Shown here: one piece after another, positions 1-33,842 of the stretch
How the letters are laid out: each line of letters begins with the position of its first letter
Position numbering within the stretch: the stretch's first letter is position 1
Virus record (IMG/VR): IMGVR_UViG_3300006990_000069
Span: 1-39,817 of that record
Direction: 5' to 3' (one strand)
DNA: 39,817 bases
Source: a virus
Program-made: the position numbers and the translations under genes
The notes under the pieces: generated by a model
Told to the model about the DNA's origin: nothing
The model's database searches: none
Seen by the model: only the letters and a program-made list of their open reading frames with translations

Positions 1-151
1 ATTCTATGAAGTAGTGATTGTTGGATACTGCATAACCTTCAAGTTTGTTGAGTTCGACTAACTCAGGTTGTTGTTTGTGTATGTATTCTAAGGCTACATC
101 GGATAACCCAAATCCGCCGTAGCATTGGTTTATAACGATTTTATTACTCAT
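1..151 (-). CDS. Partial conserved phage protein, N-terminus only
   Basis: The first 50 codons of a leftward gene are present; it runs off the left edge. The start ATG at 149-151 follows A/T-rich sequence (CTATTATGAG) and the protein begins MSNKIVINQCYGGFGLS. This 'KIVIN-CYGGFGLS' opening is, from memory, that of a small protein common in diverse phages; its function is not known to me. It is the next gene downstream of the structured non-coding region at 152-764, in the same direction. Confidence 0.7.
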   Translation of the reverse strand, partial: MSNKIVINQCYGGFGLSDVALEYIHKQQPELVELNKLEGYAVSNNHYFIE

Positions 152-764
152 AATAGTTTTGGTGATAGTGGTTAGAGTGGTGGCTTAGGAGCAGGTTGTT
201 TATCCCTTACTACATGTGCGTTAAATGAATTTGCACGATTAGGTGTAGTTCACTGTAAAAGCTTGTCTCATGCTTTTAGGAACTCCTAAGCCTGAAGAAA
301 TTGATGGGGGCAGGATTGGATACCTGCATCCGATATGTTCAAGATATTTTATGCGACACTCTTGCGAGTGAGAAGATAAACGCTTTCACGCCTTACATCT
401 AACTTGAGACAGAACTTAATAAGTTCAATTATGGTTTTTTGCCATACTCAAGTACGAGAGGTATCAACTACGATATGACTTATAAAGTTTCTTCCACTAG
501 GTTGTACACTTTACATCATCATCCTCCCCATCGGGATGGACGGCATCTCTCTGCAATTTCTCTTGATCATCCGAAACCTATTCTATTCATGTCTGAAACC
601 TTTCCCACTCATTTGAGTTCGAGGCACTCTGCGAAGAGTTAGAACAATTTGTGCATGTTAGCCTTCTGTACGGCTAAGCTACATGCTTCCCCTTATGCCA
701 ATGATCAGTCGGCATAAAATTGAAACGAGGGAGCGAAGGAAAAAGAAAATTCCTCTCCCCCCTC
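152..764 (-). ncRNA. Candidate large structured non-coding RNA
   Basis: About 610 bases without a credible gene but dense in hairpins. Perfect or near-perfect stems include 257-277 (AAAAGC/GCTTTT), 276-289 (TTAGGA/TCCTAA), 357-370, 378-393, 412-426 (GAACTT/AAGTTC), 430-446, 626-639, 653-686 (11 bp with a four-base bulge), 693-717 (TTATGCC/GGCATAA) and an imperfect 15-base-arm hairpin at 727-764. Read on the minus strand, 357-370 and 378-393 close with GNRA loops (GCAA, GAAA); 626-639 has a GNRA loop only on the plus strand, so the strand is not certain. A long-range 7-bp match joins 303-309 to 526-532. Neighbouring genes read leftward and a 25-bp repeat lies at the proposed 5' end. Size and phage setting resemble the GOLLD and ROOL classes; I cannot assign it to either. 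Confidence 0.45.
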
Positions 765-788
765 ACAATCGATCCATTAACGGAACTT
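764..788 (-). promoter_or_regulatory. 25-bp repeat, copy A: possible leftward promoter
   Basis: This sequence recurs at 8740-8764 with 24 of 25 bases identical; the core CGATCCATTAACGGAACTT is exact. Both copies lie just upstream of a leftward transcription unit: this one before the structured non-coding region, the other before the whole left operon. Downstream of both, on the minus strand, comes a G-rich stretch and then a pyrimidine-rich one. A phage-specific promoter or activator site is the simplest reading; a recombination repeat is the alternative. Confidence 0.45.
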
Positions 789-1114
789 TATGGCTGAGGT
801 GTTGCTGTAAATTCTGTTTCGTGAAGCGTTTTGTAATTATCGTGTGATTCCATATTACTGAGCATGGATTGTAGTATTGTGTTGATTGCTGTTAGTTGTG
901 CTTCAACTGTTTTTTTATCTTTTGAAATACTGAGCAATTGAGCTAGCAAATCTTGGATTATGTATATTCTGTCTGAAGCCCATGTGATATCTGATGTGTC
1001 TATACCTATTTCGGTAAAGTCATAACCATGTTTAGTGCTAGGTTTTACATAGAGTTTACGGAAGTCGTCAGTTATTGATTGTGGTAATGTGATTTTGAGT
1101 GTGGATTTATTCAT
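788..1114 (-). CDS. Hypothetical protein, 108 aa
   Basis: I do not recognise this protein. It is acidic to neutral, with a beta-like N-terminal part (MNKSTLKITLPQS) and a central helical stretch (residues about 45-85, rich in Leu, Ile and Gln) that could form a coiled coil. It is the last protein gene of the left operon before the non-coding region; its stop codon touches repeat copy A. About 100 bases separate it from the gene upstream. Confidence 0.6.
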   Translation of the reverse strand: MNKSTLKITLPQSITDDFRKLYVKPSTKHGYDFTEIGIDTSDITWASDRIYIIQDLLAQLLSISKDKKTVEAQLTAINTILQSMLSNMESHDNYKTLHETEFTATPQP

Positions 1115-7112: not shown

Positions 7113-7342
7113 AATATAGTTGTTAATGTATTTGTATGTTTGATTTTGTTATACCAACCTCGCACAATTTTGCGTGGTTGTTGTTTTTGTGAGTGAGATT
7201 CTGATGGGACTAAACAAAGTATGTCGTTTGTGAAGTAGCACTTGTTGTTGAAGTGTACTGTTAAACATTTTTTTACTTTATTATAGTGGTAAAAGAATCG
7301 TTTAGAGCCTTTTGGTTTAGGCAGCTGTTGCTGTTGTGTCAT
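7109..7342 (-). CDS. Hypothetical basic protein, 77 aa
   Basis: No family recognised. It is rich in Lys, Gln and aromatic residues, with a likely beta-rich core ('KKCLTVHFNNKCYF'). It overlaps the upstream gene by 26 bases and the downstream DUF932 start by four. It may be a nucleic-acid-binding accessory protein, judging only from charge. Confidence 0.5.
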   Translation of the reverse strand: MTQQQQLPKPKGSKRFFYHYNKVKKCLTVHFNNKCYFTNDILCLVPSESHSQKQQPRKIVRGWYNKIKHTNTLTTIL

Positions 7343-8880: not shown

Positions 8881-8904
8881 TATGTACTACAGATACAGTA
8901 CATA
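8881..8904. promoter_or_regulatory. 24-bp perfect inverted repeat, candidate operator
   Basis: TATGTACT and AGTACATA are perfect 8-base arms around an 8-base centre. The site lies in the 305-base gap between the leftward operon and the rightward HNH-like gene, where a divergent control region is expected. Such a palindrome would suit a dimeric repressor. Bases 8915-8933 nearby repeat the 1158-1176 element. Confidence 0.45.
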
Positions 8905-9266: not shown

Positions 9267-9289
9267 ATCCAGCGCACCACATCGACTTT

Positions 9290-9574
9290 ATGGTTTTTTT
9301 TAAAACCATGGAAACCATTTGGAAACTAACATGTTGTCAAGCAACGATTTAAGGGAGAAATATGGTTTTATGGTTTTGTTTTCTTAGTCTCTCTTCTATA
9401 TCCCTCTTATCTTCTTTTTATCCTACCCTCTTTTTCTTCTCTTCTCTTCTTTTACTATTAATATATATATATAAACAATATAATAATAAATAGGAATATA
9501 AGATAAGGAATTATCAACGACTTATGAAATATGGTTTTTTTTTAAGAAACCATAAACTCTTCATTTTAAACCAT
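9290..9574. repeat. Cluster of eight ATGGTTT/AAACCAT motifs; possible origin
   Basis: Forward copies start at 9290, 9362, 9370 and 9531; inverted copies start at 9303, 9312, 9547 and 9568. The 9290-9309 pair is a perfect 8-base-arm hairpin, and 9362-9377 is a tandem pair. Between the groups lie a polypyrimidine tract (about 9378-9458) and a very AT-rich stretch (about 9460-9495). Together this resembles an iteron-type replication origin or a multi-site operator. One more copy lies at 10719-10725 just before the 73-aa RHH-like gene. The stretch 9267-9654 otherwise holds no gene that I can support. Confidence 0.45.
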
Positions 9575-9654
9575 AATTCGCAATAATTCAAAGAAATTGC
9601 CTCCAACAGCGCGTTGGTTAAGCCGCCAAGCCACCTTTCTGACTTATTCTACTG

Positions 9655-15649: not shown

Positions 15650-17572
15650 ATGACCACGAGAAGACAATTTTTAAAAGATAACTATTTCGTCATAGACTGG
15701 GAAACCTACTATGACAAAGACTGTACAATAAAAGGTACAACTACTTGGGAGTACTGTAAGCACGAACGATTTCATCCTTATCTCGTGGGATTAGCTTGGG
15801 GTGGCGGGAAAGACGAATCTTGGGCGGGTGACCCCCGAGAGTTTGATTGGGGTAGGCTCGAAGGTAGGATTGCCGTAGCCCATAATAGAGGATTCGATTA
15901 TCCCGTCACCCTTAAAGCAATCGAGATGGGTCTTATGCCCGATATCGAAATCAAAGGATGGCACGATACTTCCGCAATGTCTTGTTATTTGCAGCTTGGT
16001 CGTAGTCTTCAAGATGCGATGCGGGGTGCATTTGATGAGGACATGTCAAAAGAAGTAAGAGATTACATGAAAGGTAAGACTCCCGAAGATATAAAAGCGG
16101 AAGGTAAATGGGATGATGTAGTAAATTACGCGAAACAAGATGCAGTTCTCGAGTGGAGACTGTTAGAACATTTGTACCCACAGATTCCCGAGATCGAACT
16201 TGAGCTTGAAGATTTAACAATAAGAATGGGCGAGGAGGGTGTTAAAATATGCGAGCCCACCGTCGAGGCGGGAATTGATAAACTGGAAAAGGCTTTATGG
16301 GAGGCTAAAAGAAATCTTCCTTGGTACGATCAAATCGACCCCGACACTAAAAAACCTTATGTAGTATATTCCAAGAAAGCCTTGGCATTAGAATGTCGCA
16401 AAAGAGGTATCCCTCCACCTAAGTCCCTCGCCCAGGGAGACAAGGAAACGGAGAAGTGGGTGGCTAAGTATAAAGACAAATTAAATTTTGTTGCGGATAT
16501 GCAGAACTACAATCGCATCAACAAGCATCTGAAGACTTTAAAGACGATGCACGACCGTATCAACATACATGGTAGGATGCCCTACTCTTTAATGTATTTC
16601 GGTGCAGAAGTCACCGGCCGATGGAGTGGAGCTGGTGGATTTAATATGCAGAATTTACCACGGGACACAAAGTTCGGTGTTAATATCAGAAACTGCATAA
16701 AAGCACCCGATGGTCATTCATTTATTGTAAGTGACCTTAGTCAAATTGAAGCCCGTTTAATTTGGGCGTGTGTTGGCGACACTGAGTCTCTTGATCTTGT
16801 TCGCAAAGGTTACAACCCGTATGAGGCTCATGCTATAAATACTATGGGGTGGACGGGTGGTAAACTTAAAGATGAAGACCCCGATCTCTACTTGCTAGCT
16901 AAGACCCGTGTCCTTCAACTTGGATACGGTTGTGGTTGGCACAAATTTTACGAGACGGTTCAATCTTTCGGGCAATTAAAAATCTTAGAAGGCGAGTATG
17001 CCCTCGGTGATAAGAAAAGATTTACTAACTTTTTAGACTCTTATCAGAAAAAGTATTTAGCATGGTTTAATGCCGCCGACTCTATTACGAAAAAACATTG
17101 GGTAAACGCATTTATTCAAGTCATGGATTACCGTGATAAAAACCCGAAAATTGTCAAAAAATGGCGTGAGTACGATTCGGAGTATAAGTCACGAAATGAT
17201 GGTGACGATATGCAAATTGAGTTGATGAATGGTCGCTTGATTAATTTCTGGAACATCCGCGAGGAAAAAGATCAGACTAAAGCGAAGCTACAAAAAGGCG
17301 GAGGCCGTAGGAGTAACTATTACGGGGCTAACTTATTTCAAAATGAAGTTCAAGCAAACGCTCGGAATCTGTTTTCGGAGCACATGATTGAAATTGATAG
17401 GCTTGGTTACAAAATCGTCATGACTGTTCACGACGAGGTTGTTGTTGAAGTTGAAAATGAAAAACTTCACCAAGCCAAAAAAGACATAAAAAGAATAATG
17501 ACTACCCCTCCGACATGGTGCGATATCCCACTTGATTCGGACACCGTGATTATGGAGAGGTATACAAAGTAA
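15650..17572 (+). CDS. Family A DNA polymerase with 3'-5' exonuclease
   Basis: 640 aa. The N-terminal DEDD exonuclease begins 'FVIDWETYYD'. Polymerase motif A 'SDLSQIEARL' lies at about 360, motif B 'AKTRVLQLGYGCGW' at about 418 and motif C 'TVHDEVVVEV' at about 591. There is no 5'-3' exonuclease domain, as is usual for phage PolA. In motif B the residue four after the Lys, the position of E. coli Phe762, appears to be Leu, a variant linked in virome studies to temperate or slow phages. It is the replicative polymerase of this phage, preceded by a terminator and AATAAAA leader and followed closely by the kinase and primase-helicase. Confidence 0.95.
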   Translation: MTTRRQFLKDNYFVIDWETYYDKDCTIKGTTTWEYCKHERFHPYLVGLAWGGGKDESWAGDPREFDWGRLEGRIAVAHNRGFDYPVTLKAIEMGLMPDIEIKGWHDTSAMSCYLQLGRSLQDAMRGAFDEDMSKEVRDYMKGKTPEDIKAEGKWDDVVNYAKQDAVLEWRLLEHLYPQIPEIELELEDLTIRMGEEGVKICEPTVEAGIDKLEKALWEAKRNLPWYDQIDPDTKKPYVVYSKKALALECRKRGIPPPKSLAQGDKETEKWVAKYKDKLNFVADMQNYNRINKHLKTLKTMHDRINIHGRMPYSLMYFGAEVTGRWSGAGGFNMQNLPRDTKFGVNIRNCIKAPDGHSFIVSDLSQIEARLIWACVGDTESLDLVRKGYNPYEAHAINTMGWTGGKLKDEDPDLYLLAKTRVLQLGYGCGWHKFYETVQSFGQLKILEGEYALGDKKRFTNFLDSYQKKYLAWFNAADSITKKHWVNAFIQVMDYRDKNPKIVKKWREYDSEYKSRNDGDDMQIELMNGRLINFWNIREEKDQTKAKLQKGGGRRSNYYGANLFQNEVQANARNLFSEHMIEIDRLGYKIVMTVHDEVVVEVENEKLHQAKKDIKRIMTTPPTWCDIPLDSDTVIMERYTK

Positions 17573-29693: not shown

Positions 29694-32600
29694 CTAAGTC
29701 GAGCTTCCTGAAAGAATCGTGTAGCCAGCTGGCGTAACCTTATTACCGTCTACAGACGGATCCGTAGTTGTCATCACCGTAATATTATCAGGCTCACCGC
29801 TCGCATTACATACCTGTAGAGTATGCGTCCAGTATGGTTGGAGATTAAAACAATGGTTAAAAGAATAATTTGCGGTGTCCCCCGCGCCAGAAAGAACTCC
29901 GCAGTCAATAGTATAATTCTTGAAAGGTATCTGCGTTTTTAAGCACAGTATGTTTGCGGTAGAGTTTATACTTACAGTTGATGAACCGGTTGCGTCATCG
30001 TCCAGGACATGTATTGTGTCATTATTAACTGGGCATTTAGACAGTTGGGGTATAAACAAGTCAACGCTTGAAGGGTCTGATTCTACAAACTCAGTTGTCG
30101 CTTTTGTTATAGTTTTTTCGGCACCTGCATTTTTTAATTGTATGGTCTTAAAAGTCGGCCCGCTGGTGTTGGCTAGTTCTTTGGTTGCGGATTCAGCTCC
30201 AATAGTTATGCCGGTTATATTTGGTCCGGTTATATCTGAATCAGTAGTCGTGCCTGGGTTTTCAAAAGATAAAGATTGGATATCTATATCTACGGTTATC
30301 TCTTTTTTTTCCTCATCTAAACCTACAGCCGCATGTCTGTCTACAATAGTTACTGTTGCATCTTCTGGATCAGTGCCATCTTCGATTGCTACTTTAGAAC
30401 TTGTACAACCATCTATATAGCCAGTGTCTATAGATGTGCCATCATTAGTTGTTAATTGAGTACTTGTAACATCTCCTAAATCACCGTTTGGATCATCATC
30501 ATATTCGACTTCCAATAGATCCATTCTTTGAGCAGCTTGCGGGACTGGGCTACCTACATTTACCGAACTGCTTTGAATTGGGTATGGAGTACTACCGCCA
30601 CCCGTTTCATCTTCGAGCTTAAAACTTTCAATAGTTATGTAATCGTCATCTAAAGGCTCAAGCTCTACATCTACATGGTTTATCTCGTATTCATCTTTAG
30701 GCTTTGTTTCCGTATTTATTACATCTGCAACATTACGGTTTAGAGGAGTTGGTGGTGTAGGTGGAGTGTCATCCTCTACTTTAGTACCGTTTATCTTTTT
30801 AGTATCTGCGGGCTTAGTGTATTCGGAAGTTGCCTCTAGTTTTGACGATTTAAATATAACACCTGGTTCGGTTCCTTCATCTTCTATTTCTAAAGTGTTT
30901 AAATCATCTTCTACCGGTGTTTCACTAAGATTAACAGTTCCCGATTGAAGTTGAAAATCGTTATTAGATGTAGGCCCCGTTTCTACTTTAACTGTCTGAC
31001 ACTCTGTTGATTCTAAACTTGCGCTAGTTGTACTTACTGAAAGGTTTTTAGCGGTGAATTCTAAGTCATGTAAATATTTTTTTAAAGTATAGGTTTTAGG
31101 AATTAATTTTAACTTTTTAAGTTCTTCAAAATGAATTTCTTTAATATCTTCATTTTTAATAGTTACATCATACTCTTCGCTTAAAGTTATGTTAGCTTCT
31201 TCGGGAGTAAGTTTCTTTTTATGACCAGTCCAACCAATGTAAACGCTAGATCGATCTAGCTTATACATTCTTTGATAATCGAGGACTATTTTAGTTAAAT
31301 AAGGCGTTAAAGTAAGTTTGTTACCATTATTGAAGTAGATGGTATCCGTTCTCTTATACAGTTGTTTTTTGTTATCAGAAACTACGATATTGTAGTCTAG
31401 GGATGTAAATGTTACGGTAGATTTTGTAGCGTTTAAAAACTGCTTACTTCCTTTTATATAAAGCTGTTTACCTTTGTATTCATAAACCTTATCAACCTGA
31501 ACAATGTCTTTTGTTGTACCTTTAACCTTAAACTGGTTTGTACTGTTCGTAACCGTGACTCTTTCTTTCTCACCAGATAAAACTAACTCTTTAGTACCCG
31601 TTATAGGGGAGTAATAAGCAGTACCCGCTTCCAGTGTTAGTTGAGATGGTTTTTTCTTACCTTGAGCATCCACTGTTGCATAGGCCGCTGAAACGGTGGT
31701 AGGTATGTATCCCGGTTCTAAAGGTATAGTTTTACCATTTATTTTTAAAGTAGATGGGGTTTCTACAACTTCGTAAACTTTTTTAGTTTCTTTAAAAGTT
31801 TCTTTAGTAATTTTAAGCTGACCCGTTTGTTTAACTACGAAACAACCTCCGCAGTCAGAACCCGTCGAAGTTTCGAAAACGGGTGTGTTTGTAATATCGG
31901 GACTTCCTTGAGATTCGGATATTACTACCTCAAACTCACCATCGGGAGTAGGTGTTCCTGAATCTATTTCTATATTGGATATTTCAGAAACCACATTTTT
32001 TGGTGATCCAGAGGATGTGAAATCACCATTTGAAAATGCTAAACTATTTATACCCGTAATTATATTTTGAGGACTTCCGTCATTTTCCTGATCACCGTCC
32101 TTTTGATCTTTTTTAGTAAGGCTTGTTAAAAATCTAAGAGTACTGCTATCGACAGTACCGCCCGCGAATTCCTCGGCAGTTTCTGCTAAATCGGACTTTG
32201 ATAAAAGTTCTACATAGCCATCGTCTACATATTTACACTTAGCTTCTAACTGAAGTCCAGTTACTACATTAATTGGAGATTTGGTATCTGTGTCTTTTAG
32301 TTGAGGAGCTGCAAAATTAAAAGTCTCGTCAAATTCACATTCGGGATCTGGTTGTTGTGCATCCTCTTCAGGTATTTCGGTCCAAAGATCTGCATTATTT
32401 GCATCATCCGGAAAGTTACCCTGACTGATGTCTGAAGCTTGGTAAAATTTACCATTATAACCAACAATCTCACCCCCGTTGTATAGTGTGTTAGAATCCC
32501 AATCGGGTGGTGGTACGGGGTCGCAAGGGGCCAGCGTAATCGCGTACATGTCAAAAGGTTGAGGAGTACCCGTATTACCGATGGAAACTGTTACCGTAGG

Positions 32601-33842
32601 CATATTAAAAGGAGCTCCGTCTTTTACAAAATTACCCGGTGTGGTGTCTATATTGTAAGACTTAAATTCCTGAGGCCCGTTAATATCAGCTTGTTGCTCA
32701 ATATCAATTTTTGCAGTACCAAATACACACGGATCTTGAGTGTCCTGAGGTAAATCAGCTTCATCTACTTCTTCCCAGTATTCCTCACCAATAGGATCGT
32801 CGGGAGGGTCGTCTATTGTGACTTCTTTTGCTCTATAATACTTCCCCGCATAGCTTACATAATCACCTGCCTCATACCTGATTGATCCCGTATAAAGAGC
32901 TGGTATTATAGGTGTTAAAACCTTATCACAGTCTAAATCAACGATAGTTGTATTTGGTGTATAATGCTCAATTGTTTTAGCCGTACCAGGGGTTACAACT
33001 ATATCCAAAGACCGAGCTTTAAAATTAGCATTAGTTTCGGAGTCATCCGAATCAACTATTTTTACTTTTGGTATTGTGAGTTCTACTTGATTTGGGCAAT
33101 CTTCTTTTTTAGTTAAATCTTCCTCATCTATTTCTATCCAATCGGGAAACTCACCCCCAAGACCTTCGCCCGGCGGGCTGGCGTCATTTACAGATCTCGA
33201 TTTATAATACTTACCGTTGTATTCAACTTCATCGCCAATATTATACTCGACTAATACATCCCACATATCGGGGATTACGGTAACTTCTGGGCAGGGTTCT
33301 GGTTCTTCTAAATAAAGCTCGGTTACTTTAAAAGTATTAGTATCTCCGTCAGTTATATTAATTAGAGAGCTTGATATTGGAGAAGAACCCCCATCATTTG
33401 GGTAAGTCTCAGTCCATATCACAAGCTCGTGCAAAATTCTCTCTCCGCGTTGATCGGTAATAGCTGCTGGCGGGTCTAGCTTATCTTCAGCCTGAAACCC
33501 GGTTCCTCCAGTTTTATCGACCTTAGCAACATAGCAATAGTAATTACAAGGCTGGCAATTAAGAACCATTAAATCGCCATGCGTGATCGCTCTATTTTGG
33601 TGATTCTGATGCTCTTTTATAACCTTAAGAAAAACAGCTCTAGCTTCCTCTCTGCTCTTAGGCAGATCAACTTCATAATCTGCTACATCAATAAAGTGGA
33701 CAATCATCTGACGATCACCAGCTTCATTTTCAAAGACGGTAAAATTACTCATAGCGTCTTCGGGTGGAGTCAGATCGATCTCCATACCGTCAATACGCTC
33801 TTCAAGTTCTCTGAGAGCCTGTTGTAAATCTTCGTTTGTCAT
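29694..33842 (-). CDS. Giant tail protein with three CBM5/12-like modules, 1382 aa
   Basis: The longest gene here. An N-terminal segment with a helical region is followed by three repeats of about 50 residues, each with 'Y..GD.V.Y.GK.Y.A' and a final Trp: 'NIGDEVEYNGKYYKSRS' at about 200, 'EAGDYVSYAGKYYRAKE' at about 320, 'NGGEIVGYNGKFYQASD' at about 455. This is the pattern of carbohydrate-binding module family 5/12, which binds chitin or other glycans. The rest is a long Thr/Ser/Asp-rich beta region. It probably forms the main receptor-binding fibre or spike. Confidence 0.75.
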   Translation of the reverse strand: MTNEDLQQALRELEERIDGMEIDLTPPEDAMSNFTVFENEAGDRQMIVHFIDVADYEVDLPKSREEARAVFLKVIKEHQNHQNRAITHGDLMVLNCQPCNYYCYVAKVDKTGGTGFQAEDKLDPPAAITDQRGERILHELVIWTETYPNDGGSSPISSSLINITDGDTNTFKVTELYLEEPEPCPEVTVIPDMWDVLVEYNIGDEVEYNGKYYKSRSVNDASPPGEGLGGEFPDWIEIDEEDLTKKEDCPNQVELTIPKVKIVDSDDSETNANFKARSLDIVVTPGTAKTIEHYTPNTTIVDLDCDKVLTPIIPALYTGSIRYEAGDYVSYAGKYYRAKEVTIDDPPDDPIGEEYWEEVDEADLPQDTQDPCVFGTAKIDIEQQADINGPQEFKSYNIDTTPGNFVKDGAPFNMPTVTVSIGNTGTPQPFDMYAITLAPCDPVPPPDWDSNTLYNGGEIVGYNGKFYQASDISQGNFPDDANNADLWTEIPEEDAQQPDPECEFDETFNFAAPQLKDTDTKSPINVVTGLQLEAKCKYVDDGYVELLSKSDLAETAEEFAGGTVDSSTLRFLTSLTKKDQKDGDQENDGSPQNIITGINSLAFSNGDFTSSGSPKNVVSEISNIEIDSGTPTPDGEFEVVISESQGSPDITNTPVFETSTGSDCGGCFVVKQTGQLKITKETFKETKKVYEVVETPSTLKINGKTIPLEPGYIPTTVSAAYATVDAQGKKKPSQLTLEAGTAYYSPITGTKELVLSGEKERVTVTNSTNQFKVKGTTKDIVQVDKVYEYKGKQLYIKGSKQFLNATKSTVTFTSLDYNIVVSDNKKQLYKRTDTIYFNNGNKLTLTPYLTKIVLDYQRMYKLDRSSVYIGWTGHKKKLTPEEANITLSEEYDVTIKNEDIKEIHFEELKKLKLIPKTYTLKKYLHDLEFTAKNLSVSTTSASLESTECQTVKVETGPTSNNDFQLQSGTVNLSETPVEDDLNTLEIEDEGTEPGVIFKSSKLEATSEYTKPADTKKINGTKVEDDTPPTPPTPLNRNVADVINTETKPKDEYEINHVDVELEPLDDDYITIESFKLEDETGGGSTPYPIQSSSVNVGSPVPQAAQRMDLLEVEYDDDPNGDLGDVTSTQLTTNDGTSIDTGYIDGCTSSKVAIEDGTDPEDATVTIVDRHAAVGLDEEKKEITVDIDIQSLSFENPGTTTDSDITGPNITGITIGAESATKELANTSGPTFKTIQLKNAGAEKTITKATTEFVESDPSSVDLFIPQLSKCPVNNDTIHVLDDDATGSSTVSINSTANILCLKTQIPFKNYTIDCGVLSGAGDTANYSFNHCFNLQPYWTHTLQVCNASGEPDNITVMTTTDPSVDGNKVTPAGYTILSGSST

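Follow-up and report, generated by a model that had tools for sequence, protein, structure and literature searches.

Few very large structured RNAs are, to our knowledge, known in phages. Two described families, GOLLD and ROOL, are often found near tRNA islands of phages and prophages and assemble into RNA-only cages of unknown function, and many GOLLD members exceed 800 nt and have a conserved 3' region (PMC12286853). An earlier note had proposed that a hairpin-dense non-coding stretch near the left end of an IMG/VR viral record could belong to one of these families or form a new class. The window analyzed here is that whole record, 39,817 bases long.

Membership of GOLLD or ROOL was not supported: none of 4227 Rfam families reached its gathering score in the window. 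A scan of positions 1–1300 with E up to 10 returned two chance-level hits only (15.1 and 14 bits). GOLLD, whose model includes the conserved 3' region, was without a match in these 4227-family scans, and HEARO, OLE and group I and II introns were likewise without a family-model match. The ROOL model (RF03087), searched separately, gave no match at E up to 1, and the control genomes were silent too. The group II D1D4-1 model (RF01998) did not match in the stretch and matched two controls. For the tmRNA that had been suggested as a further check, ARAGORN found neither tRNA nor tmRNA in the window, which covers all but ~28 kb of the phage.

Genomic setting of the stretch

The window encodes rIIA, rIIB, a family A DNA polymerase, a helicase, an exonuclease, an integrase and a major head protein. 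The IMG/VR contig 3300025098_000044 (G001, 59,241 bases) is the same phage, matching at 99.8–99.9% rightwards from window position 8885 in the part compared, and its polymerase and head protein match those of the window at 99–100%. In G001, a non-coding stretch comes first and the small terminase gene TerS follows. Relatives measure 68,336, 68,374, 68,780, 68,875 and 69,086 bases (68.3–69.1 kb), which suggests a full genome of similar size, ~68 kb, for this phage. As the window and G001 together give ~68.1 kb, the gap separating window base 1 from the TerS stretch would be about 0.2–1 kb. The uncultured virus is probably a virus of bacteria, and its lineage, read from IMG sample numbers, is probably marine. 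A scan of bacterial genomes for TerS returned one metagenome bin only. Scanning with a single RIIA sequence found no relative, and scanning with an RIIA alignment reached 42% identity at best. The arm that separates the rII genes from the terminase genes is variable: relatives carry other genes there, and G001 stops at window position 8885 and resumes at the terminase element.

Other observations were made in the window and its relatives. The minus strand of the window carries 14 copies of the motif ACTATCA (positions 169, 1165, 1788, 2900, 4245, 5053, 6428, 7867, 8922, 15408, 17958, 28038, 35105 and 36510) and the plus strand none, even where genes run rightwards. The same bias was seen in relatives (20:0 in L128, 14:0 in L137, 13:0 in L106, 12:0 in L131 and 10:0 in L090), and several intergenic copies read GGCTAGCnACTATCAT. 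Comparison with G001 revealed internal repeats at 23737–24903 within a 733-aa gene (22948–25149). A 1382-aa protein encoded at 29694–33842 has three CBM_5_12 carbohydrate-binding stretches and is likely a tail protein. A candidate origin lies at 9267–9654 between leftward and rightward genes, in non-coding sequence rich in AT and pyrimidines where ATGGTTTT / AAACCAT motifs recur.

The stretch and its surroundings comprise the following loci.

1–151, minus strand: downstream gene P0001, starting MSNKIVINQCYGGFGLSD... and cut by the window edge
152–787: stretch under study, flanked by two leftward genes
764–787, minus strand: repeated promoter-like element AGTTCCGTTAATGGATCGATTGTG, marking the 5' border of the stretch directly next to the stop of the 788–1114 gene
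788–1114, minus strand: upstream gene of 108 aa, function unassigned, with a weak relative in L015
8740–8763, minus strand: second copy of the element, at the head of a leftward gene block, 23/24 identical to 764–787

No other tract of the window that lacks ORFs of at least 80 codons is as long as 152–787. The longest ORF has 30 codons on the minus strand, the presumed transcribed one, and 67 codons, with a TTG start, on the plus strand, which agrees with the earlier reading that the region holds no credible gene. No terminator-like site was found within 1–1300, nor in particular where the stretch adjoins the gene at 151, and no iteron-like direct repeats were found in the stretch. A scan with P0001 gave two short matches only (L155 and L156); upstream of L155, coding sequence was found and a similar RNA was not.

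The repeat reported at the 5' side was recovered in its two minus-strand copies. A weight matrix run over the window, scoring these at 24.0 and 23.3, found no third copy (next best 13.3). Degenerate copies occur at comparable places in two relatives, L015 and L076 (L076:45). The copy in L015 precedes a block holding the weak relative of the 788–1114 gene. In L076 (TerS 88% identical), the element is followed in turn by a stem-loop, two genes and the TerS stretch, and the 600-base RNA is absent. In element-pattern scans, a loose pattern gave 11 chance contigs and a tighter one gave L076 together with L153 and L154, the last two of which were not accepted as relatives. Sigma-70 scoring does not pick the element, and a PF00940 single-subunit RNA polymerase was not found in ten clade records, where the control was silent too. 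A stem-loop can be drawn by eye after the element copies, the clearest cases being the window, L076 and L015. This fits a putative promoter whose transcript would begin in the G run.

Predicted fold and preferred strand

Folded as RNA, the whole minus strand of the stretch reached −187.8 kcal/mol (z −5.46), against z −2.23 for the plus strand. With more shuffles, positions 152–763 gave z −5.11 and −4.91 on the minus strand and −1.82 and −2.27 on the plus strand, and none of 60 shuffles was as low as the minus strand. The RNA of the putatively transcribed strand thus folds far below shuffled sequence (z about −5), which supports the structured-RNA reading of the earlier note. When shuffling was confined to 80-base blocks, keeping local skew, the minus strand still gave z −3.92, so local composition is not responsible for the strong fold. 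Without the 5' hairpin the minus fold scored −4.7, and 182–575 alone scored −4.2 to −4.6. Across 32 other window segments of equal length, the mean z was −0.41 and the lowest −3.84, making 152–763 minus the most extreme among the 34 equal segments tested. All six 160-base minus slices of the stretch were negative, with just two below z −3, which indicates that much of the fold signal lies in longer-range pairing. Elsewhere, the minus slices 7171–7330 and 17401–17560, in or near coding sequence, scored −5.0 and −6.6.

The minus strand is the likelier one because of its fold z of about −5, compared with about −2 for the plus strand, and because the repeated element lies at its 5' edge. This preference is modest and appears under RNA parameters only. 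As DNA the two strands fold equally well, and both beat their shuffles (z −3.3 and −4.9), which leaves room for a role at the DNA level. We put the chance that the RNA structure of the stretch is functional at about three in four.

The minus-strand fold was predicted to contain 33 helices of at least 3 bp, most with pairing probability >0.85, in line with the dense stems noted earlier. The domains below are predictions from one sequence, listed from the 5' end of the minus-strand RNA with pairing probabilities (p).

726–765, minus strand: 5' stem-loop TGAGGGGG / CTCCCTCG with inner GAGGAA / TTCCTT (p 0.66 outer, 0.93 inner)
693–717, minus strand: 9-bp hairpin TTATGCCGA / TTGGCATAA (p 0.95)
653–686, minus strand: bulged hairpin GCATGT + TAGCC / GGCTA + ACATGC (p 0.90–0.96)
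578–647, minus strand: three-hairpin domain closed by TTGTTCTA / TAGAATAG and holding the stem 626–639, ACTCT-TCGC-AGAGT (p 0.87–0.96)
306–692, minus strand: long-range helix GGGG (689–692) / CCCC (306–309) enclosing the two middle domains (p 0.90, single-sequence prediction)
329–575, minus strand: central multi-branched domain closed by 571–575/329–333 and 561–566/339–344 (TCAAGA / TCTTGA p 0.99)
357–370, minus strand: GNRA hairpin CACTC-GCAA-GAGTG inside the central domain (p 0.99)
310–327, minus strand: hairpin GCAGG / CCTGC (p 1.00)
182–292, minus strand: 3' domain in which an 11-bp helix GGCTTAGGAGT / GCTCCTAAGCC closes three arms (p 0.98); structure model R1 matches here only
152–181, minus strand: final 30 bases ahead of the next start codon, containing CCACTATCACC and unpaired in the predicted fold

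A stem-loop after the element can also be written by eye in L076 and L015. Of three finer claims about the fold, two held in part and one did not exceed chance. Of the two minus-strand GNRA loops described, the GCAA hairpin at 357–370 is in the fold (p 0.99), whereas the GAAA loop (~384–387) appears as an alternative only. The stem at 626–639, said to prefer the plus strand, does have a GNRA loop there, but it also forms on the minus strand (p 0.94), and the stretch as a whole favours minus. The 7-bp match between 303–309 and 526–532 exists but is at chance level, as 20 such matches occur in the stretch compared with 13 expected after shuffling, and both of its sides are paired elsewhere in the fold.

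Homologues of the stretch were sought by several routes. Using blastn against phages, plasmids and 33 relatives, no significant match was obtained, the phage hits at E up to 10 being short and due to chance; nhmmer against the relatives' loci and blastn against 24 further records also gave no homologue. Single-sequence structure models R1 and R2 (domains 182–292 and 402–519), searched over 1.05 Mb of relatives, returned self-matches only. Scans of the viral collection and a genome scan yielded no homologue either. Across all these approaches, phages, plasmids and about 100 related contigs of the ~68-kb lineage were without a homologue, and the stretch is an orphan within the collections searched. 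It may represent a new RNA class; the fold evidence comes from one sequence.

A conserved element upstream of TerS

A separate non-coding element of 190–250 bases precedes TerS and is conserved in dozens of relatives (L073–L151) and in this phage (G001, L066:174–373). In it, GGGGnnAnAGGGG pairs with CCCCnACCCC, and a CUGGAUU-CNGA-AUCCAG-type hairpin and then GGTACCACTATCACTACCACTCGC follow. In 18 sequences, 7 of 16 pairs were changed on both sides, a level that 2 of 500 shuffles attained and none of the slid controls did, though the shuffle control leans in favour of the structure, which was drawn on the same alignment. The RNAalifold consensus was weak, and Rfam gave no family match on the scanned loci carrying the element. 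Where relatives carry rIIA as well as TerS, it is this element, which differs from 152–787, that occupies the intergenic sequence ahead of TerS. The element may be a structured RNA adjoining a packaging site, and as a possible new phage RNA, alone or combined with a packaging site, it has better support than 152–787.

Bases 152–787 were rejected as a copy of this element: its profile (GGGGnnAnAGGGG ... CCCCnACCCC ... GGTACC) gave no match there at E up to 10, and the element's profile A3 has 62 matches in relatives. At another locus, L065:6620–6870 in a relative (G028), a very long near-perfect inverted repeat (RNA fold z −8.7) occupies non-coding sequence before the terminase block.

Possible roles and comparison with known systems

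The properties computed here are the ORF-free state, the strong fold, the strand asymmetry with RNA parameters, the repeated 5' element and the orphan status; we infer transcription, the promoter role of the element and function. At even odds (about 0.5), the stretch specifies a leftward structured RNA of ~600 bases that would be a long leader of the gene at 151, perhaps processed to a non-coding RNA. It would be the template of a minus-strand RNA in the phage's variable arm, with transcription most likely starting at the element 764–787, at or near the G run at ~763. The RNA would open with a protective stem-loop, fold into at least three domains (578–692, 329–575 and 182–292) and, after ~30 unpaired bases, read through into the small gene starting at 151. 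Read-through is expected because no terminator separates the stretch from the gene, and this absence together with the 30 unpaired bases before the start codon tilts the reading to a leader, maybe processed. The structured leader could set the timing or amount of the gene-151 product, and it may be cut to give a stable non-coding RNA. Counted in favour was L076, which has the same element and stem-loop before genes and then TerS. Counted against were the absence of a homologue and hence of covariation, the fold support from a single sequence, the absence of such an RNA after the L076 copy of the element, and the lack of a sigma-70 match to the element and of a PF00940 polymerase (control silent).

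The RNA might instead be a free-standing large phage non-coding RNA (a scaffold, cage or binding RNA), analogous and not homologous to GOLLD and ROOL, with gene 151 having its own start signal. We consider this somewhat unlikely. Length and helix number within the ROOL range (574 model positions), a GNRA loop, the lack of ORFs and the 5' element of its own argue for it, and CCACTATCACC before the start codon at 151 resembles the clade's intergenic motif GGCTAGCnACTATCAT and could be a separate gene signal. It is weakened by the failure to find a homologue, and so any covariation, by the lack of a 3' end signal, and by the tRNA-free window, in contrast to the frequent location of GOLLD and ROOL near tRNA islands (PMC12286853). 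It is doubtful that this is a ~600-base multi-domain RNA unrelated to GOLLD, ROOL, OLE and HEARO, with its own promoter, in a marine lineage that has a second, unrelated structured RNA by its terminase genes.

Decayed or filler sequence in the hypervariable rII–terminase arm, structured by chance or as a remnant, would agree with the variability of the arm (the G001 break at 8885 and the other genes in relatives) and with the missing homologue. A z near −5 that none of 60 shuffles equalled, the best among the segments tested, is nevertheless unlikely for decayed sequence; the 5' element is intact, and phage genomes seldom keep 600 idle bases, making decay improbable. Very improbable is a DNA element with a structure that matters in single-stranded form, as in a replication origin or a site of recombination or packaging. 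The DNA folds of both strands beat shuffles and relatives have non-coding tracts between the arm and the terminase genes, yet in the RNA fold the strand headed by the repeated element is favoured over the other, iteron-like direct repeats were not found, and the AT-rich tract at 9267–9654 is a more obvious origin candidate.

The strand and 5' end of the stretch can now be named as likely, and its domain borders are predicted; if it is another independent example, it would help to show whether phages turn to large ornate RNAs repeatedly. It resembles ROOL (RF03087) in similar length (574 model positions), many helices, the phage or prophage setting and the lack of a protein-coding frame, and differs in having no model match and no tRNA in the window, with homologues and pseudoknots undemonstrated. 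With GOLLD it shares being a large structured phage RNA, but it has ~600 bases and no model match, whereas GOLLD is often >800 nt and near tRNA islands (PMC12286853). Like the element upstream of TerS, it is non-coding, structured and in the same genome region and orientation, though that element is kept in dozens of relatives and covaries. Compared with long phage 5' leaders, 600 bases is unusually long and no regulator or ligand is known, but the likeness extends to the element, stem-loop, structured stretch, unpaired end and start codon, free of any terminator.
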